Below, piece by piece: positions 9,297 through 46,394 of a DNA stretch of 49,392 nt. Source of the DNA: a virus; the IMG/VR virus record IMGVR_UViG_3300025128_000067, positions 1-49,392 of that record, one strand, 5' to 3'. A model generated the notes under the pieces. The model saw only the letters and a list, made by a program, of their open reading frames with translations, was not told the origin of the DNA and searched no databases. Made by a program: the position numbers and the translations under genes. Numbering within the stretch: the stretch's first letter is position 1; each line of letters begins with the position of its first letter.

Positions 9297-12200
9297 TGGA
9301 TTTGATCGAGCAACTGCAACGCGAGCAGCAAAACCAAGACACCCCGGATCTGATCGAGGCGCTACAGCCCGAAGTGGGTCCGGCGGTCGACACCTCGCTC
9401 GGTGTCGTTCCTGATCAACGTGCCAAGGATCTCAACACATCTCGAAAGTCAGGTTTCAATGTTGAGGACCTGGAAGCCAACCGAGATGTCGTCGACCAGG
9501 AATATGAGCGCCAAGACCTCATTGACGAGCTTGAGCGAGCTCCTAAAAGCTCTCTATATTTTACGCAGAACCCGGAAGTCCTTCCCGCCGCCAAAGACGA
9601 CATCAACACGCTAACCAAGATCGAGGAACGCCTTAGTTTCTTTGGCGCTGCCGAACGCGGTATCGACCTTCTACAACAGAACTATTATGCAGCCGCCGAA
9701 GCGACCGGTGAGATGTTCGGGGCAAAAGATCTCATTGAGTTCGGACGTGAAGGGCGGATCTCAAACGAAGCGCAGATCAGCGCGCAACCGTCGCGTATGA
9801 AGGTCGAGGATATCAATAACCTCGATTCCGGTCTCCAGTGGCTAAAGGAGACGTTCGGCGAGCAAGGTGTAATGATGGCGCCGAGCATGGTCGGCGGCCT
9901 GGCTGGGGCAAAAACCGGCCTCGCACTAACCGCAGCGATCCCCGTACCTGGCGCGCGCATCGCCGGCGCATCGATCGGTGGTTTTCTCGGCGCGTTCATA
10001 CCAAACATCTTCCAAAGCGTCGGCGAGGTCCAGTCGGCCATCAAACAGAAAGATCCGGACGTCGTCAGGCCTGATGTAGCGTTTGGCGCCGGCAGTCTTG
10101 TCTCGCTCCTCGATAGCGCCGTCCCCGGCAAGGTTGGAACAAAGATCATTAAAGCATTCGGCATCGATCCGAAGGATGCCGCGGCTGACGCTGTTATTGA
10201 TCAACTCGGTAAGTCATTGACGCGTCGTATTGGCAGCGCCGTCAAGGGCGGCGGAAAGAGTTCCGGCATCGAGGGTGTCACCGAGGGGATCCAAGAGGCC
10301 CTCACCGAGCTCGCGGCGACTTATGCCGCAGGCCAAGACGTGAACGTCGAAGAACTTACGAGCGCCATACTCAATGGTTTTGCCGGCGGCTTGGTTATGG
10401 GTGGCGCCATTGGTAGTTCATCGACGGCCGTTAGCGACGCCTATAAGACCAAGCGCGCACGTGAATATCGCGACAACATGAACACGATCCTCGACCACAC
10501 TCGCGACAGCCTGTTGCACCAGCGGTCGCCAGAAGTCTTCCAGGAATTCTTTGAGGCTCTCGCCGGTGCGGACCTGACCGAGATCAACGTCGCCGCGCAG
10601 CCGATCGTCGCGTACCTCCAAGGTCAAAACGTCGATCCGGTCGAAACTCTCGAGGCGCTTGGCGTCGATATGAAGCAAGCGAACCGGGCATTTGAACAGG
10701 GCGGTGATATCACCATACCGGCCGCACGGTTCTTCGACGCCGTGAGTGACGGACCGCTGTTCGAGCTCCGCGACGGCTTCCTAATGAACGTCCGTGAGAA
10801 AGACGACGCACCGACCCTGGTTGAGGGTGAGGCTGATACGGCAGCTACCGAGGCACGCCTGGTTGCACAAGTCGACCAGGTCCGCCAAGACCTCGAGGGT
10901 ACGAAAGAGCTCGACCAGGTCGAGCAGGACGCCGAGCTCCTCCGCACGACCGTGACCGAGGAGATCGCGAAGACCGGACGATATACCCGAGCCGGCGCGC
11001 AGCGGATCGCTGCCCTCTATGAGAACTTCTTTATCACGCAAGCAACCGATCCCGGTATGGACAAGCCGCTTACACTTCAAGAAGTGTTCCCCGAGCTCCG
11101 GATGCGTTCAGTCGCCTATGCCGATCGCGATACGCCGATGGTGGAAGCCCTCGAGCAGTCCGCAGCCGAAACCGCGGCGGCGCCGGCGCGTATGGAGTTC
11201 ATGGATGACCAGTTCGGGACAATAATCTCGGCGATCGGCAGGAACCAAAACGAAGCGCATGTCGCGCGGATCGACATCGATACATTCCTCGATCTGACGA
11301 CGACGCCTGAAACCCGTGAGACGGTTGAGACGGAAGACCCCGCAGTCTCAAACATCGAACCCTTCGATGAAGTGCTGGCCATGTTTGACCCGGCGGAAAC
11401 AGAACGGGTCGATGAAAACGCCATTCCGTTCATCGCCATTGATGAGTACGGAAAGGTTATCGGGCATGAAGGTCGACATCGGGCGGTGTTGCTCAAGCGC
11501 GGCGGCGCGACGACGATGCCGATCGCGGTTCAGTATCCCGCCGGCGTCACCGAATTTGGTGAGCTCTCGGGCGAGCCGATGCCGACACAACTGACCGGAC
11601 AGTTCGACGCAACCATCGTCCGTAATATGCCGGAGACGGTTCTTGCGTCACCAGACAATATCGACGAGATGCGCGCCCTGGTCGGTGAGGGCAGCGACAC
11701 GCCGGCTGCCGCCAGGCAGAACGTCTATCACGTTACGTTTACAGATAATGTCGAGGAGATCGCGGAAGGCGGGCTGAAACAGCTACAGCCTAGCAACTAC
11801 GTTCGCGCTGATGGCGAGAGATATAACGCTGACGGCGGGGTCTTCGCGTTTGAGAACGCGGAAGACGCTGTCCGTTGGGCGCTGCGGATGGACTTTGATT
11901 ACCCTGACAGATCAATATCTATCGTAGAGGTCGATCGCGGCGACGTCTTTGAGATCGATCCATCCGAAGACCCGTCTTTGCAAACCGGCGCGGGCGCAGC
12001 CTTGCGAAGCATGGCGAACATCCCGGCAGATCGTATCGGAAAAATAACAGAGATATCGTCTCTTGAACGAGCCGAGCAACTGGGCATTACCTTAGACGAG
12101 TGGCTGGCGCAGACGGCTCAAGATATAAGCACGCCGGCTGCCGTTATCACCGCATTTCAGCCGCCGATATTTAAACCGTATCCATTTAAGGGCCTCGCTA

Positions 12201-28150: not shown

Positions 28151-28256
28151 TAAATGCGGAAGCCTCGAGCCGCCGATCTTCGTCCATGGTCATTATCAAT
28201 GTCAGAACTGCCGGTGCATTACCGATGGTGATTGCTGCCAGGGCGCGCCGCTCTAA
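28047..28256 (+). CDS. Small zinc-ribbon protein overlapping the lysozyme gene out of frame
   Basis: 69 residues from ATG 28047, with AGAGGAGAG 6-10 bases upstream as a strong ribosome site. The first half overlaps the lysozyme gene by 104 bases in another frame. The C-terminal half has CDKCG...PPIFVHGHYQCQNC...DGDCCQG: two CxxC pairs forming a zinc ribbon, plus a VHGHYQC box I recall from small phage and alphaproteobacterial proteins. The conserved half lies mostly outside the overlap, so the true start could be later. Role unknown; nucleic-acid binding is possible. Confidence 0.65.
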   Translation: MQDGRSGSGGGQEGASCGASFEGARKRQTSTSRCDKCGSLEPPIFVHGHYQCQNCRCITDGDCCQGAPL

Positions 28257-28443
28257 AAGGGTAGACACTTCTCAATTCAACTTATTGTTCACTATATCGA
28301 AAAAGGGTAGACACTTTTAGCTCTAAGTCATTGATATTGTTGAATTGTGGCAATACCGTAGGGGTCGCCACTCCTCTTTTAAGTCATTGATTTTGTTGGT
28401 GAAATAGAAGGGTAGACACTTTGGGTCCAAAAGGGTAGACACT
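28255..28443. repeat. Repeat array beside integrase, candidate attP
   Basis: Four direct copies of AAGGGTAGACACT (extended copies AAAAGGGTAGACACTT at 28255-28270 and 28301-28316; further copies within 28408-28421 and 28429-28443) flank two direct copies of TAAGTCATTGATWTTGTTG (28324-28342 and 28380-28398). Between the latter lies a GTGGC...GCCAC segment. The region holds no gene, is AT-rich and adjoins the integrase stop. The layout R-R-S-core-S-R-R is that expected of an attachment site with arm-type integrase or Xis sites around a core. The exact crossover site cannot be read from one sequence. Confidence 0.6.
28347..28380 (+). terminator. Possible hairpin terminator inside the att region
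   Basis: GTGGC (28347-28351) pairs with GCCAC (28367-28371), and ACC (28355-28357) with GGT (28363-28365), followed by TCCTCTTTT. It could end lysis-cassette transcription before it opposes integrase, or be part of the att core. The stem is interrupted and short. Confidence 0.3.
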
Positions 28444-28449
28444 CTTGTT

Positions 28450-29511
28450 CTATTTCTGGTCCTCATTCTGGTCTTCCAGGCGCTGCCTGACACCTTCAGC
28501 GAGCCTCTCTTTTCTGACCTTTGCGACGTAAGTTTCGACGTCCTGCATGTTCTGATGGTTCGAGATCGACATGATTTCCTGGGTCGTGCAGAGCATTGGC
28601 GGCTCGGCCAGGTAGCATAGCATCGCCTTCCTCAACCCGTGCATCGAGCAGTGCGGCAACCCAGCCTGGTCACACCATTTCCGAACCGCATTGCCCAGAC
28701 CGTTGACCGTGTAAGGTTTGCCGTGAGACGTTACCAGGAACGTCAACAACCCCTCCGTATCTGTCTGATCGATGACATTGCGTAGCTGCCGAAGCAGAGG
28801 CACCTTATGCTGGACGTCCCCCTTGGTCTGGCGGAAATCAATCCAGTTCCCATCCTTGGTAATATGCTGTCGACCGATCTGACAAACATCGCTGATCCGT
28901 AGGCTGGTCATTAGTGCGAGCTCGAGAGCAAGGCGCGCGTTCGTTCCGATCGGGTGCTTGTCCTGGTACTGGTGGATCTCATCGATCGTCCAGGTGTGAT
29001 GACCATCCTTATTATTGCTGGCGAGCTTCTTCACGTCGCGCAGCGGGTTCGTCTCGACAACCTCGAGCCCGATGATCACGGTATAGACCTGGTTCAAGAA
29101 CTTCCGCAGATTGTTCCAGGCGTGCGGCGTATCGACCATATCGTCGCGCACTTTCCGAAAATGCTTCCCTTTCCAGGAACGCACGGCGCTGGCGCCGACC
29201 TTCCCATCGTTTCTTTCGACCCATCGCTCGAGCACGTTCTGTCGCGCGATTTGCGTCTTTGATCCAAGCTGTTTGAATTCGGCACTCTTGAGGTATTGTT
29301 TTACAGCCCACGCCCAACTATGCGTCGGGATCTGCGCGGCTGGCTTGCTGACGATCTCCTTGCCGCACGCCGCGTGATAATCCTCCCAGAACTCGGGGGA
29401 TCCTAATGGGCCTCGCAGCGGTATCTTCACGGCGCCGCGGCGGAAATAAATATATTCTTTTCCGTGTCGGTTTCGGTATGCCTTAACGTATTTCACTTTA
29501 ACGCTCACCAT
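28450..29511 (-). CDS. int: Tyrosine-recombinase integrase
   Basis: 353 residues counted from ATG 29511; a longer start at 29547 is possible but lies inside the upstream gene. The catalytic set is complete: R205 (TSLRISDV), H291-x-x-R294 (MHGLRK), H319 (ISNHQN) and Y328 (VETYVAKV). An N-terminal arm-binding part (YRNRHGKEYIYFRR) and a core-binding helical domain precede it. It would integrate the phage at attP/attB and, with Xis, excise it. The gene is the last of the leftward operon and abuts the repeat array that probably is attP. Confidence 0.93.
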   Translation of the reverse strand: MVSVKVKYVKAYRNRHGKEYIYFRRGAVKIPLRGPLGSPEFWEDYHAACGKEIVSKPAAQIPTHSWAWAVKQYLKSAEFKQLGSKTQIARQNVLERWVERNDGKVGASAVRSWKGKHFRKVRDDMVDTPHAWNNLRKFLNQVYTVIIGLEVVETNPLRDVKKLASNNKDGHHTWTIDEIHQYQDKHPIGTNARLALELALMTSLRISDVCQIGRQHITKDGNWIDFRQTKGDVQHKVPLLRQLRNVIDQTDTEGLLTFLVTSHGKPYTVNGLGNAVRKWCDQAGLPHCSMHGLRKAMLCYLAEPPMLCTTQEIMSISNHQNMQDVETYVAKVRKERLAEGVRQRLEDQNEDQK

Positions 29512-29737
29512 CGAGGAACGCCAATTCGTCCCTGATGGTCTCTCCATCCCGAGGCAACGCCTCGAGGCATTCCTGCACTTCCGTCACCAGCCATACGCAC
29601 TTAACGGTTCTTCCGTTATCTCCCTCGATCAGCCGGCGAGGCGCCGGCATCGTCCCGGATTCCACCATTGCCATAAATTTGGGAATCGAGCAAGACACAG
29701 CCTCGGCTGCCTCGCGGCGGCTAAGACTGAGCTTCAT
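29498..29737 (-). CDS. AlpA/Xis-like DNA-binding protein
   Basis: 79 residues from ATG 29737, whose ATGA overlaps the previous ORF stop; longer in-frame starts (29761, 29800) are less consistent with the overlapping gene chain. LSRREAAEAVSCSIPKFMAMVESGTMPAPRRL is a MerR/AlpA-type winged helix-turn-helix pattern, followed by a CVWLVTEVQECLEAL helix. It overlaps the integrase start by 14 bases. Position and fold indicate an excisionase or a regulator of int. Confidence 0.72.
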   Translation of the reverse strand: MKLSLSRREAAEAVSCSIPKFMAMVESGTMPAPRRLIEGDNGRTVKCVWLVTEVQECLEALPRDGETIRDELAFLDGER

Positions 29738-39022: not shown

Positions 39023-39478
39023 TTGATTTTACACATTGATTACGAAACCCGGTCTGCCGTCAACCTCTTCACTGAAGGGGCGTATCGCTATGCCATGTCA
39101 GACACGACCTCGATCATCTGTTGCGGCTGGGCGTTCGACGATGACGACATCAAGATCTGGATCCCGGGCGAGCCCATGGATTGGGACATGGCGAGCTTCC
39201 TCCAGGGTGCTGGCGGTCCAAGGTCGGTCCACGCCCATAACGCTCAATTCGAGCGCCTCATTACGGATTTTGTTTTAGGTCCCATGTTGGGTTGGCCGTC
39301 CTCGGCCCCGATGGAGACCTGGTACTGCACGGCCGCCCAGGCGCGCGCCCGGGGTCTCCCTGGTGCGCTCGAGGACCTCGGCACATGCCTTAACCTCAAC
39401 GTCAAGAAGGATCGCCGCGGTAAGGAACTGATCAAGCTTCTCTGCATCCCACGGAAAGGTGTGCCCAGTGATGCCTGA
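39023..39478 (+). CDS. DNA polymerase A, N-terminal exonuclease part (first reading frame)
   Basis: 151 residues, TTG start at 39023; no ATG lies before the first motif and no clear ribosome site is seen. It contains ExoI (LHIDYETRSA, D and E) and ExoII (HNAQFERL, D/N and E region) of the 3'-5' proofreading domain, then LNVKKDRRGKELIKLLCIPRKG. ExoIII is missing here and is found in the next frame. The frame ends at TGA 39476-39478, overlapping the second ORF. The two ORFs together are the length of one family A phage polymerase, so they are either a split gene, a +1 frameshift product or a mutation. Confidence 0.85.
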   Translation: MILHIDYETRSAVNLFTEGAYRYAMSDTTSIICCGWAFDDDDIKIWIPGEPMDWDMASFLQGAGGPRSVHAHNAQFERLITDFVLGPMLGWPSSAPMETWYCTAAQARARGLPGALEDLGTCLNLNVKKDRRGKELIKLLCIPRKGVPSDA

Positions 39479-41096
39479 CTTTTGCATGGACGAGGATCTC
39501 CTCCGGGAGATGTATGCCTACTGCCGACGCGACGTCGAGGTTGAACGCCTGGCGGCCAAGGCATCGCAGCCGCTGACCGATGCCGAATTCGCTTCGTTCG
39601 TTGCGGCCGAGAAGATCAACGACGCGGGTCTCCATGTCGACGTCAAGTTCGCCGACGCCGCCGGCAACTACGCCGAACAGGAAGTGGCACAGATCAGCGA
39701 TGAACTGTCACGTTTGACGGATGGTGAGGTGACGTCGCCGCGCCAGTACCAACGCCTGAAAGATTTGCTCCTGCCTTATGCGGATCAGGACGACCGGATC
39801 CAGGACGCAATGACGGTGACGAAGAAGGATCGGCGCACGGGAGAAGAGACGTCGAAGACGGCGCTCGATCGTGACGCGCGGCGGAAGCTCCTCGAGCTCG
39901 TCGAGGCCGACCCCGATATCCTGCCTGACGATGTCGTCGAGGTGATCAACCTGATCGACGAAGCCGGGCGTTCGAGCGTCCATAAGTTCAATGCCATGGT
40001 ATCGCGGTCCGGTGACGCCGGCCGTGTCCAGGGCGCTTATATGTTTTCTGGCGCCGGTCAGACCGGGCGGTTCAGTTCCGTCGGTCTCCAGGTCCACAAT
40101 TTTCCGCGCCGCTGCGCCCAGGATCCCGACCAGGTGCGCGACGACGTCATCAAGGGCAGGGGTCTCGACAATGTCATGGACACATTGGCCTCGATGCTAC
40201 GTCCCTCGATCGTGGCGCCAGACGGCTACACGTTTGTCTGTGGCGACTGGTCGGCCATCGAGGCCAGGATCCTGCCATGGTTGACGGATAGTCATGGCGG
40301 CCGGGAAGTGCTCGACGTCTTCAACACCAATGACGCCGACCCGGATCTGCCGGACATATATAAAGTGGAGTACGGCAAGGCGTATGGAAAGCCGGCCGCC
40401 GACGTCACAAAGAGCGAACGCGCGATCGGCAAGGTCCTTGTTCTGGCGCTCGGATACCAGGGCGGCTATCGAGCGTTCCAGGCGATGGCGCGCGCCTACC
40501 AGGTCTCGATGCCGGATGAAGAAGCTGAAGGGCTGAAAGAGATTTGGCGTGCCAACAACGCCTGGGCCGTCGAGTTCTGGTATGACCTGCAAAACGCGGC
40601 CATGGATGCGGTGCGCTATCCCGGATCCGAGCAGCGCGTTGGACGTCTCACGTATTACAAGCCGGCGACCGACCCCAGCACGCCGCTCTATTGTTTCCTG
40701 CCCAGTGGCCGGCCGCTGGCTTATCCGTTCGCGCGCATCGATGTCGACGAGGATCACCCGAACCGTCCTGATGTGCTCTCAGCCATCAAGGCGACGTGGA
40801 AACCCAAACGCGGCGAGAGTGAATGGCCGCGGATCAATCTCTATGGCGGTCTCCTGGCTGAGAACGCGACCCAGGGTGTCGGCGCGTGCATCCTGCGCGC
40901 TGCCATGGCCGACCTGGTTGAGCGCGACTGGCCGGTCGTCGGCCATACCCACGACGAGCTCCTCCTCGAGGTCGAGGACAGCGAGGTCGACGAGGCAACT
41001 GAAGAACTGCGTTTGGCAATGACGGACCTACCGACCTGGACAGACGGACTGCCGATGGCGGTCGAGATCTGGTCCGGTCGCAGGTATCGCAAATGA
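39471..41096 (+). CDS. DNA polymerase A, ExoIII plus polymerase domain (second reading frame)
   Basis: 541 residues from ATG 39471 (GTG 39459 also possible; AAAGG precedes). It begins with the missing ExoIII motif, REMYAYCRRDVEVERLAAK. Polymerase motifs follow: A, CGDWSAIEARILPWL with D259; B, in KVLVLALGYQGGY; C, GHTHDELLLEVED with D495. The product replicates the phage genome. It is in frame +1 relative to the preceding ORF. GCC UGA C at the junction resembles a +1 shift site of the release-factor-2 kind, but the spacing of the upstream SD-like AAAGG is longer. Its stop overlaps the next ATG. Confidence 0.9.
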   Translation: MPDFCMDEDLLREMYAYCRRDVEVERLAAKASQPLTDAEFASFVAAEKINDAGLHVDVKFADAAGNYAEQEVAQISDELSRLTDGEVTSPRQYQRLKDLLLPYADQDDRIQDAMTVTKKDRRTGEETSKTALDRDARRKLLELVEADPDILPDDVVEVINLIDEAGRSSVHKFNAMVSRSGDAGRVQGAYMFSGAGQTGRFSSVGLQVHNFPRRCAQDPDQVRDDVIKGRGLDNVMDTLASMLRPSIVAPDGYTFVCGDWSAIEARILPWLTDSHGGREVLDVFNTNDADPDLPDIYKVEYGKAYGKPAADVTKSERAIGKVLVLALGYQGGYRAFQAMARAYQVSMPDEEAEGLKEIWRANNAWAVEFWYDLQNAAMDAVRYPGSEQRVGRLTYYKPATDPSTPLYCFLPSGRPLAYPFARIDVDEDHPNRPDVLSAIKATWKPKRGESEWPRINLYGGLLAENATQGVGACILRAAMADLVERDWPVVGHTHDELLLEVEDSEVDEATEELRLAMTDLPTWTDGLPMAVEIWSGRRYRK

Positions 41097-41284
41097 GTGC
41101 GTGGGATCGCTGGCTCGAGATGCGTGATGGAGAGATCTGGGAGGTCAAGGAGCCGGACGGTTGGTCATTTGTTTCGGCGGCTAAGAACGGAACGCTGACG
41201 CGATTCGAACGTAAGCTCGACGGAGATAACCCTGATGACGCGAGGAAGATATATGAGTTCTGGAGCGAACGTGATGACGCCTGA
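41093..41284 (+). CDS. Small hypothetical protein between polymerase and primase (63 aa)
   Basis: ATG 41093 overlaps the polymerase stop (ATGA). The product MSAWDRWLEMRDGEIWEVKE is acidic, rich in Trp, with a helix-strand pattern and a C-terminal DDARKIYEFWSER helix. Unrecognised; likely co-translated with the replication enzymes. Confidence 0.65.
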   Translation: MSAWDRWLEMRDGEIWEVKEPDGWSFVSAAKNGTLTRFERKLDGDNPDDARKIYEFWSERDDA

Positions 41285-43535
41285 TAAGTTTCTCGAGTTT
41301 GTGTTCGGCGACTTGGATGACGATGAGACGATTTGCGTCGCCAAGGGATCGCCCAAGGCGAATGGCGACACGGTGTTCTGGAATGTGGCGCCGGACCATG
41401 AGGTGTTTACAGGTTGGAAGCGGCGCCCGGAACGAATGCGCCAGGCCTGGTACTTTTGCGTCAGCGCCACACGTGGCACGTTAAACCAAAAGGGCAATGC
41501 CCTGCGCCGCCGCCGCGAGGATCTGACGCGCTATCATTGCCTGGTCCTCGATGATATCGGCACCAAGGCGGAAGCGCCGCCGGTGGATCCAGCCTGGAAG
41601 CTCGAGAGCTCGGCCGGCAACTATCAATGGGGATATTTGCTCGAGCCCGGTGACAAGTTCGGATCCTACGAGGCATTGATCGAGTGGACGCATGAGCAGG
41701 GTTGGGGTGATGGCGGTGCCGGCGGATCTTATCGACTGATGCGGATCCCGGGCAGCGCCAATCTCAAGGAGGGCAGGGACCGTTTCATCTCACGTGTCGA
41801 GGTCGTCGACGATACCGTCTGGCAACTGGCCGACCTGGCGCGCGAGCTTGGCGTATCAAGTGAGCAGTGGAGCTCGATGGCGTCGCGAACGATCGACCGC
41901 GCTAAGATGAACGGTACACGTGTGACGAAGATCGCCAACGTCATCGATGATCCGGTGTTGACCTGGCTGACCGAGAACAATCACGTGATCTCGGACAGCG
42001 GTCAGGAGTTCGTCGAGGTCGCGTGCCCTTGGGGCGATCAGCACACGACAGGCTCGAACGTCGCATCCTATTCGCCTCTCGGCCGCGGCAGTGGATCCCA
42101 CGCGGAGCGCCGCGGCTTTAATTGTTTTCATGAGCACTGCCGCGAGCGAGGCTTCCGCGAATATAATGACTGGGTTGTCGAACAGGGCGGGCCCTGGGCC
42201 GCCGGCGTCGACCCGCTGCCGTTCTTGCAACAGCAATATGTATATGTCGAGAACGGATGTAAGTGGGCCGACATGAACCAACGCCCGCAAGGCGGGTGGT
42301 GGATCCTCGAGGACCGCGAGTTCGGCGGCCGGCATAAGCGTAAGGTCGATGCACCCGGTCACGATCGGCCGGTCCAGGTATCGACAGCGATGCTCGAGAG
42401 CGACGACACGCGTCGCGCCGCACGTATCACGTACTGGCCAGGCCGTAACGATACTTTCGATATGGACGTACAGAACCATATTAATGCCTACATCGAGGCG
42501 ACCTGGCCGGAGACGTCGGAGGAGCCGACGGTGTTCCTCGACCATATCGATTACCTTCTGCCGAACGATATCGAATACGATCTGTTTCTCGACTGGCTGG
42601 CCTGGAAGGTTCAGAACCCGGGCCGGCGATCCTACGCCATGCTGATGATCGCCGAGGACGCGTTCGGTACGGGGCGAAGCTGGCTCGGTAAGGCCCTGGC
42701 GGCAGCCCTCAAGGGGCACGTCAATCATGCCACGTTCAAGCAATTGATCGGCAAGGGGACCAGCGGTGAGAACACCTATAATGACTGGGCGGCTGAATGT
42801 CAGTTTCTAATCATCAACGAAGCCAAGGACGTGACCAGGGAGGACTTCTTCGACAGCTACGAGACGTTTAAGGACAGGATCTCGAACGATCCGTCGACGT
42901 TCTGGCGGAACACAAAGTACGGTGCAGCGCGAAACGATTTTATGTGGTTCAACGCTTTGATCTTCTCGAACCATGGCGACGCCCTGGTCATTCCGGAAGA
43001 GGATCGACGCGTTTGCGTTCTGACGAACCCGACACAAATGGAGAAGAACGATTACTACGAACGACTACACCGCAGCCTCGAAGCCGACGAACCACAAAAG
43101 ATATTTTGGTATTTAAAAACGCGAGACGTATCGAAGTTTGACCATGTATATCCACCGATGACGCCAGGTAAGATGTCGATGATTGAGACGACATCATCAC
43201 CGATCGAACGCATTACAGATTACGTCAAAGAAACAACCGAGCACGACCTCGTTACACGTGACACGTTGGCGCATGAGATCCGACGTGCCGCTGCCGATCT
43301 CAGCCTGTCGGATCTCTACCGCGGATCTGATCTCGACAAGGCAGTTCGGAACATCTGGCCGAAGCTCCACAACCTCAGACCAGGCACAAAGAACGGCGCA
43401 CGCTACTCGATAAATAATAAACAGACCGAGGTCAGAGCGGTCAGAAATAGGGAACACTGGTTAGCGATAGACGCCGCACGTGACACTAAGACGATCACAA
43501 AACAGTTCGACACCCGACAACGGACCCCGATTTAG
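41274..43535 (+). CDS. Primase-helicase (AEP/RepB-like N-terminus, SF3 helicase C-terminus)
   Basis: 753 residues from ATG 41274 (GGAG 9 bases upstream); ATG 41253 and 41235 are also possible. The N-terminal domain has CLVLDDIGTK with D93 and D94, followed by SSAGNYQWGYLLE, as in RepB-like archaeo-eukaryotic primases of phages. The C-terminal domain is a DUF5906-type SF3 helicase: Walker A variant FGTGRSWLG (Arg468 where Lys is usual), Walker B FLIINEAKD, sensor IFSNHGD and arginine finger EEDRRV. It would unwind and prime at the origin. The TAG stop lies inside the first of a series of TAGGGA repeats. Confidence 0.87.
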   Translation: MTPDKFLEFVFGDLDDDETICVAKGSPKANGDTVFWNVAPDHEVFTGWKRRPERMRQAWYFCVSATRGTLNQKGNALRRRREDLTRYHCLVLDDIGTKAEAPPVDPAWKLESSAGNYQWGYLLEPGDKFGSYEALIEWTHEQGWGDGGAGGSYRLMRIPGSANLKEGRDRFISRVEVVDDTVWQLADLARELGVSSEQWSSMASRTIDRAKMNGTRVTKIANVIDDPVLTWLTENNHVISDSGQEFVEVACPWGDQHTTGSNVASYSPLGRGSGSHAERRGFNCFHEHCRERGFREYNDWVVEQGGPWAAGVDPLPFLQQQYVYVENGCKWADMNQRPQGGWWILEDREFGGRHKRKVDAPGHDRPVQVSTAMLESDDTRRAARITYWPGRNDTFDMDVQNHINAYIEATWPETSEEPTVFLDHIDYLLPNDIEYDLFLDWLAWKVQNPGRRSYAMLMIAEDAFGTGRSWLGKALAAALKGHVNHATFKQLIGKGTSGENTYNDWAAECQFLIINEAKDVTREDFFDSYETFKDRISNDPSTFWRNTKYGAARNDFMWFNALIFSNHGDALVIPEEDRRVCVLTNPTQMEKNDYYERLHRSLEADEPQKIFWYLKTRDVSKFDHVYPPMTPGKMSMIETTSSPIERITDYVKETTEHDLVTRDTLAHEIRRAAADLSLSDLYRGSDLDKAVRNIWPKLHNLRPGTKNGARYSINNKQTEVRAVRNREHWLAIDAARDTKTITKQFDTRQRTPI

Positions 43536-43745
43536 GGAAAACACCCCGAATTTAGGGACAATTAGGGAAAGCTAGGGAAAGATTTCCCTAGTTCCCTAGT
43601 TGTTTAGTTTCAACGACTTGGTCGAATTTTTGAGGTCAATTAGGGAATTAGGGAAACCTCCCTTAGAGCAGATAAATTAGTAGTGATGGTGGTCAGACTA
43701 ATTTGAGACTCCATGGGAAATTGTCACTAGTTCCCTAATTCCCTA
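43533..43745. repeat. TAGGGA iteron array, candidate replication origin
   Basis: Six forward TAGGGA (43533, 43553, 43563, 43573, 43641, 43649) and four reverse TCCCTA (43585, 43593, 43732, 43740) lie in 213 AT-rich bases with no gene. CTAGGGAAAgaTTTCCCTAG (43572-43591) is a perfect palindrome, and the 16-bp TTAGGGAATTAGGGAA at 43640-43655 is repeated inverted at 43731-43746. It directly follows the primase-helicase gene. This is the structure of an initiator-bound origin. Confidence 0.65.
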
Positions 43746-43759
43746 ACTGGAGATTGGGA

Positions 43760-44197
43760 ATGTCAGAAATTGTCATCGAGGAGACGATCCGCGCCGGCGA
43801 GTATCGCCAGCGTCGATTGTCACTGACTGAAAAATGGGTTCGCGATGGTGTCATCGAACCCAACATGCATACGGCTGCGCTCCGGTTCGCGAGCGATTTT
43901 CACACGGCGCAACTCTCCGGCTACTACGCAACGTCGGACGTGCATCACAAGGTGGATAGCTCACCGCAGCACGCCGATTACCTGGTTCGGAAAAGTATCC
44001 AAGCTCGAGGCGCTGTTGCCGCGGCGATGACGGCTGTCGGCAAACAAGCCGGCTCGGTGCTTTGGGATGTCATCGGTGTCGACATGAGCTTACGCGAACA
44101 CATCAACCGCGGCGATGGACGTACCACGTTGAACGATGCACGTGGTCGGCTGATCGTCGCACTGGAACATCTAGCGAGGTATTACGGTTATGGATGA
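43760..44197 (+). CDS. DUF6456-like protein
   Basis: 145 residues from ATG 43760 behind CTGGAGATTGGGA. RLSLTEKWVRDGVIEPNMHTAALRFASDFHTAQLSG, then ARGAVAAAMTAVGKQAGSVLWDVIGVDMSL and a final RLIVALEHLARYYG follow the DUF6456 pattern that I know from alphaproteobacterial genomes and phages. The family is helical and probably binds DNA. As it lies between the presumed origin and the late region it could be an activator of late transcription or replication. Function unproven. Confidence 0.65.
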   Translation: MSEIVIEETIRAGEYRQRRLSLTEKWVRDGVIEPNMHTAALRFASDFHTAQLSGYYATSDVHHKVDSSPQHADYLVRKSIQARGAVAAAMTAVGKQAGSVLWDVIGVDMSLREHINRGDGRTTLNDARGRLIVALEHLARYYGYG

Positions 44198-44378
44198 GAA
44201 GAAGCACTGCAACATTGATGACGATGGCCGGCGCCGCGGTCTTGAAAGTCTGAACCGAATGAAAACCCTCACACCTGATCGCGGACCTGGTAACGTCCGC
44301 GGTAACCAGATGTTCGCGGAATTGATCGGCAAGCGCCGGTTCGATGAGCCGGGGATGGAGGTGACGTTTAAAAAATAA
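44190..44378 (+). CDS. Small hypothetical protein (62 aa) before the late control region
   Basis: ATG 44190 overlaps the previous gene. The product MDEKKHCNIDDDGRRRGLES is charged with a C-terminal RFDEPGMEVTFKK. No motif is recognised. It ends immediately before a group of GCCAGT repeats and the late promoter-like region, a position held by Q antiterminators in lambdoid phages, although it is much smaller than known Q proteins. Confidence 0.6.
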   Translation: MDEKKHCNIDDDGRRRGLESLNRMKTLTPDRGPGNVRGNQMFAELIGKRRFDEPGMEVTFKK

Positions 44379-44426
44379 ACTGGCAGAGAAATGATTTTTG
44401 CCAGTTTGCCAGTTTAACCTGCCAAT
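44379..44426 (+). repeat. GCCAGT repeat cluster upstream of late control region
   Basis: Tandem TTGCCAGT at 44398-44405 and 44406-44413, a degenerate CTGCCAAT at 44419-44426, and an inverted ACTGGCA at 44379-44385. They lie before the promoter-like elements at 44438-44498 and look like binding sites for a regulator. Confidence 0.55.
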
Positions 44427-44437
44427 TTATGACCTGG

Positions 44438-44460
44438 CTCACAACATGTTGTGTTTATGT
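44438..44460 (+). promoter_or_regulatory. Palindromic late element CACAACATGTTGTG
   Basis: CACAACATGTTGTG (44440-44453) is a perfect 14-bp palindrome. With TTTATGT it forms a 15-base match (14 identical) to the element before the tail fibre gene at 22018-22032. The palindrome suggests a dimeric regulator. Confidence 0.5.
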
Positions 44461-44469
44461 TCGACATCG

Positions 44470-44498
44470 TTGACGTGAAACACAAGATGCAGTAGTTT
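44470..44498 (+). promoter_or_regulatory. Candidate sigma-70-like late promoter
   Basis: -35 TTGACG (44470-44475), 17-base spacer, -10 TAGTTT (44493-44498). The -10 is weak. Predicted transcription would reach a strong terminator only a few tens of bases downstream. Confidence 0.4.
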
Positions 44499-44517
44499 TG
44501 GTTAGTCTATCACACTT

Positions 44518-44554
44518 ACGCCCTGCCCATTCCGCGGCAGGGCGTTTGATTTTT
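44518..44554 (+). terminator. Strong terminator directly upstream of the late operon
   Basis: Perfect 10-bp stem ACGCCCTGCC (44518-44527) and GGCAGGGCGT (44536-44545), 8-base loop, then TTGATTTTT. It would stop early read-through and transcripts from the adjacent promoter unless overridden. Confidence 0.9.
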
Positions 44555-44582
44555 AATCATCATTTTTCAAGACGAGGTGGTC

Positions 44583-44729
44583 ATGCCCCAAGTTAAAACG
44601 GCTGGTGGTAAGATGAGGTCTTACCCTTACACGAAGGCTGGTAAGAAGGCAGCCACGGCAGCGAAAAAGAAGAAGTCTAGTCGCATGTCGGCCGCGACCA
44701 AGCGCCGTCGGGCTACGGCCAAGGCGTAA
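44583..44729 (+). CDS. Small Lys/Ala-rich basic protein (48 aa)
   Basis: ATG 44583 with GACGAGGTGGTC upstream. The product MPQVKTAGGKMRSYPYTKAG continues as Lys/Ala repeats and ends TKRRRATAKA. Tiny basic proteins with a YPYTKAGKKAA-type segment are known to me from phage head and packaging regions. It may bind DNA during packaging. It is the first gene behind the strong terminator and resembles the 38-residue protein at 878. Confidence 0.7.
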   Translation: MPQVKTAGGKMRSYPYTKAGKKAATAAKKKKSSRMSAATKRRRATAKA

Positions 44730-44770
44730 TGGTCGAACTTACGCTGTTGCTTCTGCTTCTGGTCTGATCA

Positions 44771-45082
44771 ATGGCCGAGAAGGAGAAGAAACAACACGGC
44801 GGACGTCGACCTGGCGCCGGCCGTAAACGTGGATCGAATTCACGTGCGACACGTGATCAGAAGGTCACCCTGTCAGATCTTGCCAGGTCGCACGCGACGA
44901 CAGCCATCGAGACATTGGTCATACTAGCCACACAAGCCGACAGCGACAGCGCCAAGATCTCGGCGTGTAAGGAACTACTCGATCGAGGGTATGGTCGGGC
45001 ACCGCAAGCCGTCGAGCATGAAGGAGACTTGACGTTTAACATCATCTCGGCCGTGCCGCGGCCCGAGGCCGATGCCAACTGA
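44771..45082 (+). CDS. Small terminase subunit-like protein
   Basis: 103 residues. The basic GGRRPGAGRKRGSNSRATRD start followed by a helical segment and ACKELLDRGYGRAPQ is typical of phage proteins encoded directly before the large terminase and often annotated as small terminase or terminase-associated DNA-binding proteins. It would recognise phage DNA and hand it to TerL. Overlaps TerL by 11 bases. Confidence 0.75.
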   Translation: MAEKEKKQHGGRRPGAGRKRGSNSRATRDQKVTLSDLARSHATTAIETLVILATQADSDSAKISACKELLDRGYGRAPQAVEHEGDLTFNIISAVPRPEADAN

Positions 45083-46394
45083 TCTGATCTTCGACTACCA
45101 GCCTCGAGCGCCTTTCGTTTCTTTCCACATGCGGAAGGAGAAACGCGCCTGTCTGGTATGTCACCGCCGGGCCGGTAAGACCGTCGCGCTTGTTGCTGAC
45201 CTGGTCGATCACGCATTGCGATGCACCGAGCCGCAAGGACGGTTTCAGTTCATCGCACCGTTGTTTCGCCAGGCGAAGGACATAGCCTGGACGTATGCGA
45301 AACAACAGACCGCGTTCCTCGGTTCGCATCGAAAGATCAACGAGAGTGAACTGTGGGTCGAGGTGCCATCGGCCGCGGGGACGCCGGCGAGGATCCGGCT
45401 CTACGGAGCGGATGCTCCCGATACGCTTCGCGGGATCTACAGCGACGGGATGGCGATCGACGAAATGAAGGACGTCCACCCGGCGTTGATGCAGGAAGTC
45501 GTCCTGCCGGCACTGGCCGATCGAGATGGGTTCCTGACGGTGAGTGGAACGCCAGGCGGATACGACGAATTCTACAACCTCTATCAACGATCGTTGAGAG
45601 AGGCGGATTGGTTCTCACTGATGCTCAAGGCATCCGAAAGTGGGATCCTCGATGAGGATACGTTGCAGGATCTGGCGGCCGAGATGCCGCCGCCCAAATA
45701 TGCACAGGAGCTCGAGTGCGACTTCGCCGCCGCGGCCGAGGCGCAGTTCATCCCGACAGAGATTGTCGAGGAAGCCATTGCCCGACGTGAGGCGCCCGAC
45801 GGTAACATGCCGGCCGTCCTCGGTGTCGACGTGGCAAGGTTCGGTGACGACCAGAGCGTGATCTTGACGCGCCGCGGCCGCACGATCGAAGACGTCAAAC
45901 GATATGCGAAGAACGACCTGGTGTTCCTATCGAACGAGATCATGAGGTGGGCTGACAACGTCAAGCCGCAGATGATCTACGTTGATGGCGCCGGCGTTGG
46001 TGGTGGTGTCGTCGACTACATTACGACGGCCGGCTACCCGGTTCGAGATGTTCAGGTCGGTCGCAAGGCTGATGACCCGATCCGCTGGGCCAACAAGCGG
46101 GTCGAGCTCTGGGGCGACATGCGCGACTGGTTGAAGAACGCACAGTTCCGAATCCCGGACGAAGAGGTCGCCGTCTTGAAGAGTGACCTCCTCGGGCCCG
46201 GGTATAAGTACACGGTGTCTGGACAGTGTGCGCTGGAGAAGAAGGAAGATTTGAAGAAGCGCGGCATCGCATCACCTGACGTCGCCGACGCATTGGCGCT
46301 GACGTTCTTCGAACGCCTGGCGCCGGCCGGCATTGTCAAGGTCGCCATGCGCGCACCGAAGCCGGCAGCGGACTATGACGGACTGCGGTATTGA
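45072..46394 (+). CDS. Large terminase subunit
   Basis: 440 residues. ATPase: Walker A CHRRAGKT (30-37), Walker B GMAIDEM with D130-E131, coupling motif SGTPGG (about 158-163). Nuclease: GVDVARFGDD with D253 and later acidic residues (MIYVDGAGVGGGVVDY, and PDVADALALTF at the end). It pumps DNA into the procapsid and cuts concatemers. Length is in the normal range. The stop overlaps the next ATG (TGATG). Confidence 0.93.
   Translation: MPTDLIFDYQPRAPFVSFHMRKEKRACLVCHRRAGKTVALVADLVDHALRCTEPQGRFQFIAPLFRQAKDIAWTYAKQQTAFLGSHRKINESELWVEVPSAAGTPARIRLYGADAPDTLRGIYSDGMAIDEMKDVHPALMQEVVLPALADRDGFLTVSGTPGGYDEFYNLYQRSLREADWFSLMLKASESGILDEDTLQDLAAEMPPPKYAQELECDFAAAAEAQFIPTEIVEEAIARREAPDGNMPAVLGVDVARFGDDQSVILTRRGRTIEDVKRYAKNDLVFLSNEIMRWADNVKPQMIYVDGAGVGGGVVDYITTAGYPVRDVQVGRKADDPIRWANKRVELWGDMRDWLKNAQFRIPDEEVAVLKSDLLGPGYKYTVSGQCALEKKEDLKKRGIASPDVADALALTFFERLAPAGIVKVAMRAPKPAADYDGLRY

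Follow-up and report, generated by a model that had tools for sequence, protein, structure and literature searches.

Within the viral DNA analyzed here, a complete IMG/VR record of 49,392 bases that we call the window, positions 43533–43746 very probably form the replication origin of a temperate podovirus, with the layout of PICI/SaPI origins, a minimal part at 43640–43746, and the primase-helicase encoded upstream as its proposed initiator. The original prediction had tied an origin to this SF3 primase-helicase, and that reading remains the best one because the same layout, composed of other words, recurs behind related primase genes and because our scan detects the known origin of EcCICFT073. 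As the window virus is a phage, this would place a PICI/SaPI-type origin in a podovirus.

A TAGGGA iteron array overlaps the end of the primase-helicase gene

Listing the units over the whole window returned ten TAGGGA/TCCCTA units in 43533–43745, the number originally claimed, on the + strand at 43533, 43553, 43563, 43573, 43641, and 43649 and on the − strand at 43585, 43593, 43732, and 43740. Outside the array, the hexamer occurs only four times in the 49-kb window, so the clustering stays specific to the array, a point on which equal density elsewhere would have told against the prediction. No other 6-mer of the window clusters as densely as TAGGGA (10 per 213 bp, versus 6 for the next unrelated word); its whole-window total is unremarkable at 14 versus 10.6 expected, and the clustering is what stands out. 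Also correctly predicted were the stop codon of the primase-helicase within the first unit, where the TAG at 43533–43535 supplies the first bases, and the AT-richness of the segment (58.5% versus 43% for the window). The 16-base double units at 43640–43655 and 43731–43746, described earlier as inverted, are exact reverse complements lying 75 bases apart. The "perfect 20-base palindrome" proved imperfect: 43572–43591, CTAGGGAAAGATTTCCCTAG, consists of two 9-bp arms around a 2-nt center, and its central bases differ from the reverse complement. The core origin lies 105–211 bp beyond the primase-helicase stop, and an Rfam search of 43000–45000 gave no match. The features of the region are as follows.

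39459–41096: PolA-type polymerase
41235–43535, + strand: primase-helicase gene
43448–43453, + strand: lone TAGGGA unit within the primase-helicase gene, 85 bp upstream of the array
43533–43598: auxiliary iteron array, with + units at 43533 (over the stop codon), 43553, 43563, and 43573 and − units at 43585 and 43593
43640–43655, + strand: direct iteron pair TTAGGGAATTAGGGAA with an 8-bp period, flanking the core origin on the left
43656–43730: core, 75 bp, 59% AT, proposed site of melting and priming
43674–43704: small dyad inside the core, AAATTAGT / ACTAATTT, whose arms pair in the predicted fold
43731–43746, − strand: inverted iteron pair TTCCCTAATTCCCTAA, flanking the core origin on the right
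43760–44197, + strand: DUF6456 protein gene (Pfam DUF6456, E 4.1e-9), first gene past the array
44771–45082: terS
45072–46394: terL

The array has the replication genes on one side and the packaging genes on the other. The record further encodes a podovirus-type portal (head-to-tail connecting protein), a tyrosine integrase, a DUF2800/PD-(D/E)XK nuclease-like protein, and an SNF2-type helicase. Because terminase, portal, integrase, and DNA polymerase are all encoded, the window virus most likely is no satellite but a temperate podovirus. PICIs are small satellites without structural and lytic genes; the window is a 49-kb phage with terminase, portal, and integrase. A search of the phage collection for DUF6456 found no relative.

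Further repeats were observed in the window. Four same-orientation copies of GGGTAGACAC at 28255–28442, just beyond the 3′ end of the tyrosine integrase gene (28450–29547, − strand), are possibly integrase arm sites near attP. A second repeat set, AAACTGGCA / TGCCAGTTTGCCAG (CTGGCA/TGCCAG), lies at 44376–44430 with an 8-bp period. It is deleted in the relative L004 and therefore dispensable, and was set aside as a part of the origin. At 44518–44545, between a 62-aa ORF and terS, lies a terminator-like hairpin, ACGCCCTGCC...GGCAGGGCGT, with a T-rich tail behind it.

The array is retained in close relatives

One contig with 99.9% identity to the window carries an identical array. In L004 (~93% identity), all ten units are kept, one unit of the auxiliary array is displaced by 2 bp, the direct pair (43640–43655) is unchanged, the core dyad is identical, and an extra third tandem unit is present at the right inverted pair. 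Differences between L004 and the window amount to 5.8% in the intergenic stretch and 6.6–6.7% in the adjoining coding sequence; since the divergence of the intergenic stretch about equals that of its coding neighbors, this sequence comparison suggests that the non-coding array stretch is under constraint. Scanning the collection for TTAGGGAATTAGGGAA identified 17 contigs, two of which were near-identical relatives; the four best other clusters resembled chance, repeat-rich, or tRNA sequence and were discarded.

The layout recurs with other words behind related primase genes

Using primase alignments as queries, we retrieved relatives at 40–48% identity and many more at 25–32%. Several of these relatives carry an iteron word of their own 3′ of the primase stop, arranged as a direct pair, a core of ~70–100 bp, and an inverted pair. 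The words are listed below.

Window: TAGGGAA, written TTAGGGAA
L032/L118: TAGAGGA, 46% identity
L117: GTGGGGA, 48% identity
L046: AGGTAAC
Coliphage vB_EcoM-606R2 (L028): AGGTGAC
Nostoc phage Nsp-JY18 (L131): CCCGGGT
Serratia phage Scapp (L132): AAAAGTG
Caulobacter phage Jess A (L129): GTAAC set, weaker

Despite the differing words, core length stays at ~70–90 bp in the window and seven relatives, and the window core, at 59% AT, is below most of them. In L111, the GGGGTAAA units look right by eye and do not pass the strict scan. The primase-helicase of L046 is split into two ORFs (304 + 504 aa; L046:4992–7629) upstream of its AGGTAAC array. L117 has a DUF6456 gene (E 1.6e-8) past its array, reproducing the gene order of the window, and DUF6456 was not detected in the L032, L046, L028, or L111 loci. 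Because DUF6456 went undetected in most relatives, the partner that the arrays share is the primase-helicase.

To define the layout, the strict scan required two similar 7-mers 7–12 bp apart, a core of 50–100 bp, and two inverted copies 7–12 bp apart. Such a layout was found within 410 bp of the stop in 9 of 34 primase genes (7 of 32 when the window and its near twin are excluded) and behind none of 262 other long-ORF stops in the same loci. The limits were set post hoc, with the first arrays already known, and the loci include near duplicates; these counts and those of the whole-locus scan below are therefore strong yet do not amount to an independent test. A simpler count of clustered 7-mers agreed (10/33 versus 7/134). 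The other 25 of the 34 primase relatives showed no layout within 410 bp, some having one at 1.5–3.7 kb and others none. When whole loci were scanned with the window left out, 23 layouts were recovered in 983 kb of primase loci, compared with 0 in shuffled sequence, and 22 of the 23 lay 3′ of the primase. Eight began no more than 230 bp past the stop; the rest were 1.5–3.7 kb away and belonged mainly to a family at 25–28% identity with 9-bp spacing. The arrays of this more distant phage family, among them L106:10648–10853, L100:8306–8442, and L087:6175–6386, show the same layout with 9-bp spacing 1.5–3.7 kb behind the primase and are likely origins too. In the podovirus isolate ctNMl277 (L005), CTACCAA occurs seven times (9815–10017) and GTTTACA ten times (10317–10577), ~3.5–4.2 kb behind the primase.

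The upstream primase-helicase is the candidate initiator

The primase-helicase has 766 aa and comprises a primase-type N-terminal part, an SF3 helicase (DUF5906), and a C-terminal winged-helix-like domain at ~656–735, with a CxnHxC motif at residues 264–302. Pfam DUF5906 matches the window protein at E 1.5e-5, slightly under the gathering score, and exceeds that score in the relatives L032, L111, L117, L046, and L028. Searched against the PDB, the family profile matched 6k9c/6k9e (NrS-1 phage helicase) at E 9e-32 and 7pds (VapE-like helicase) at E 5e-8. Judged by DUF5906 and the homology to 6k9c and 7pds, the protein appears to be of the self-loading SF3/D5-type or related Rep helicase class that serves as initiator in PICI/SaPI-type systems. 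Its Walker A motif reads GTGRS (residues 478–482), in which arginine replaces the lysine normally found there, as in several relatives, and strong ATPase activity is therefore not assured. An AlphaFold2 model (mean pLDDT 76.7, pTM 0.50) predicts a C-terminus ordered helix-helix-helix-strand-strand, with short strands and a wing at pLDDT <50; the modeled order resembles a winged helix, at low confidence in the wing. With hhalign, the C-terminal domain gave a weak match among the other primases to L028 only.

Resemblance to characterized origins

The array shares with the origins of EcCICFT073 and SaPIbov1 its position directly 3′ of a Rep helicase gene and the arrangement of two short-iteron sets around an AT-rich stretch (PMC6092414, PMC7581432). 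In the window, the position is immediate, the first unit overlapping the stop, and the flanks are exact inverted pairs around the 75-bp core, with a modest AT bias (59% versus 43%). The rep-ori segment of EcCICFT073 sustains a plasmid in E. coli (PMC6092414), and both SaPI Rep and Cch2 use a C-terminal domain to bind the iterons that lie downstream of the respective gene (PMC7581432). As a positive control, the EcCICFT073 locus, which was picked by position and gene content, passed the scan, with 11 GGTAGA words behind the primase gene and a 92-bp core. Unlike these origins, the window has a different word, an 8-bp period, and six additional upstream units, and unlike PICIs and SaPIs, the element is a phage that encodes terminase, portal, integrase, and a DNA polymerase of its own. 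Although PICI-like in the way it would work, the array belongs to an element that is no PICI. The earlier statement that no named family fits holds only for the exact word, since the kind matches PICI/SaPI-type origins.

Bordetella phages BIP-1 and BPP-1 share with the window the order primase gene, origin region, small gene, terS, and terL. Their putative origin was described as a stem-loop, and no origin iterons were reported (Berkner et al. 2014, PMC4234260). BPP-1 passes our scan with a TTGCCTCG direct pair, a ~70-bp core, and an inverted pair; unlike in the window, these pairs sit ~465 bp past the primase stop.

The Sulfolobus plasmid pRN1 likewise encodes a primase-SF3-winged-helix protein with an essential region just downstream, in which two arms flank an AT-rich loop. 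The 21-bp arms of this essential stem-loop each carry TGTCCA twice at 9-bp spacing, and those of pHEN7 have a similar tandem 9-bp-spaced word; pRN2 gave no match in the scan, and its arms carry GGAC twice at 9 bp. Unlike the window element, pRN1 is an archaeal plasmid, and its origin has been described as a stem-loop rather than as iterons. The pRN1 origin arm (L140:5087–5101) and the L100 array (L100:8426–8440) have a 15-mer in common, TGTCCATAGTGTCCA.

Phage P4 differs from the window in that ori and crr are two separated sites and its primase is of the TOPRIM type. Its likeness to the window lies in a primase-helicase whose C-terminal winged-helix domain binds origin repeats, as cited in PMC4234260.

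Alternative explanations for the array

We considered it unlikely that the array is an origin recognized as a stem-loop (cruciform), as proposed for pRN1 and BIP-1, instead of by its word. The predicted fold of the array strand does outperform shuffled sequence by a wide margin (z −5.2); its outer pairs make up a stem of ~16 bp, and pRN1 requires its stem-loop (PMC4234260). A plain hairpin, however, would have no need of the additional tandem units outside the stem, and the arms of the relatives consist of repeated words, as do those of pRN1 and pHEN7 with their tandem 9-bp-spaced words.

We give rather little credence to the idea that the array is an operator, at which the DUF6456 protein or some other regulator of the phage would bind TAGGGA to control the DUF6456-terminase operon. 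That operon begins 14 bp past the last unit, the last pair sits just upstream of the DUF6456 ribosome-binding site, and L117 retains a DUF6456 gene behind its array. Against this, arrays of the same kind stand behind the primase in the four loci without detected DUF6456, a search of 43300–44900 for sigma-70-like promoters found none, and the equivalent in EcCICFT073 is an origin (PMC6092414). That the array is a packaging (pac) site or a binding site for the terminase small subunit is very improbable: terS does begin 1 kb downstream, with terL next, but coliphage L028 has lysis genes between the array and terS, which is 2.7 kb farther on, EcCICFT073 shows the layout without an annotated terminase beside it, and the arrays track the primase rather than terS. 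Several results count against the origin reading itself. GC skew, which the original prediction had named as a check, shows no turn at the array over the window; 25 of the 34 primase relatives lack the layout within 410 bp; the window core is less AT-rich than most; the Walker A motif carries arginine; and the wing of the C-terminal domain is modeled at low confidence.

Proposed initiation mechanism and implications

If the array is the origin, the primase-helicase would use its C-terminal winged-helix-like domain to bind the TTAGGGAA iterons. The minimal origin at 43640–43746 would comprise two tandem iterons, the 75-bp core, and two inverted tandem iterons; two opposed helicase rings would assemble on the iteron pairs on either side of the core and melt it, the primase domain would make the first primers, and the PolA-type polymerase of the phage would extend them. 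The six extra upstream units may raise initiator occupancy.

Given that the same layout is found behind related genes in phages, in a phage satellite, and perhaps in an archaeal plasmid, one origin design may be widely shared. We tentatively suggest, at somewhat less than even chances, that the primase-SF3-winged-helix proteins of bacterial phages, PICIs, and archaeal pRN plasmids all use a single origin design, located 3′ of their gene and made up of a tandem iteron pair, a 60–100 bp core, and an inverted tandem pair, that the word changes with the initiator, and that the pRN1 stem-loop is an iteron origin with TGTCCA as the ORF904 motif. Less certain is the broader connection to pRN1 and BPP-1; the pRN part of it draws on few sequences. 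A layout reported as exclusive to PICIs would now extend to phages and would supply a sequence rule for locating the still unmapped origins of tailed phages such as BPP-1. Each initiator would thereby gain a candidate binding word, including TGTCCA for pRN1 ORF904, whose motif was not yet identified according to PMC4234260.
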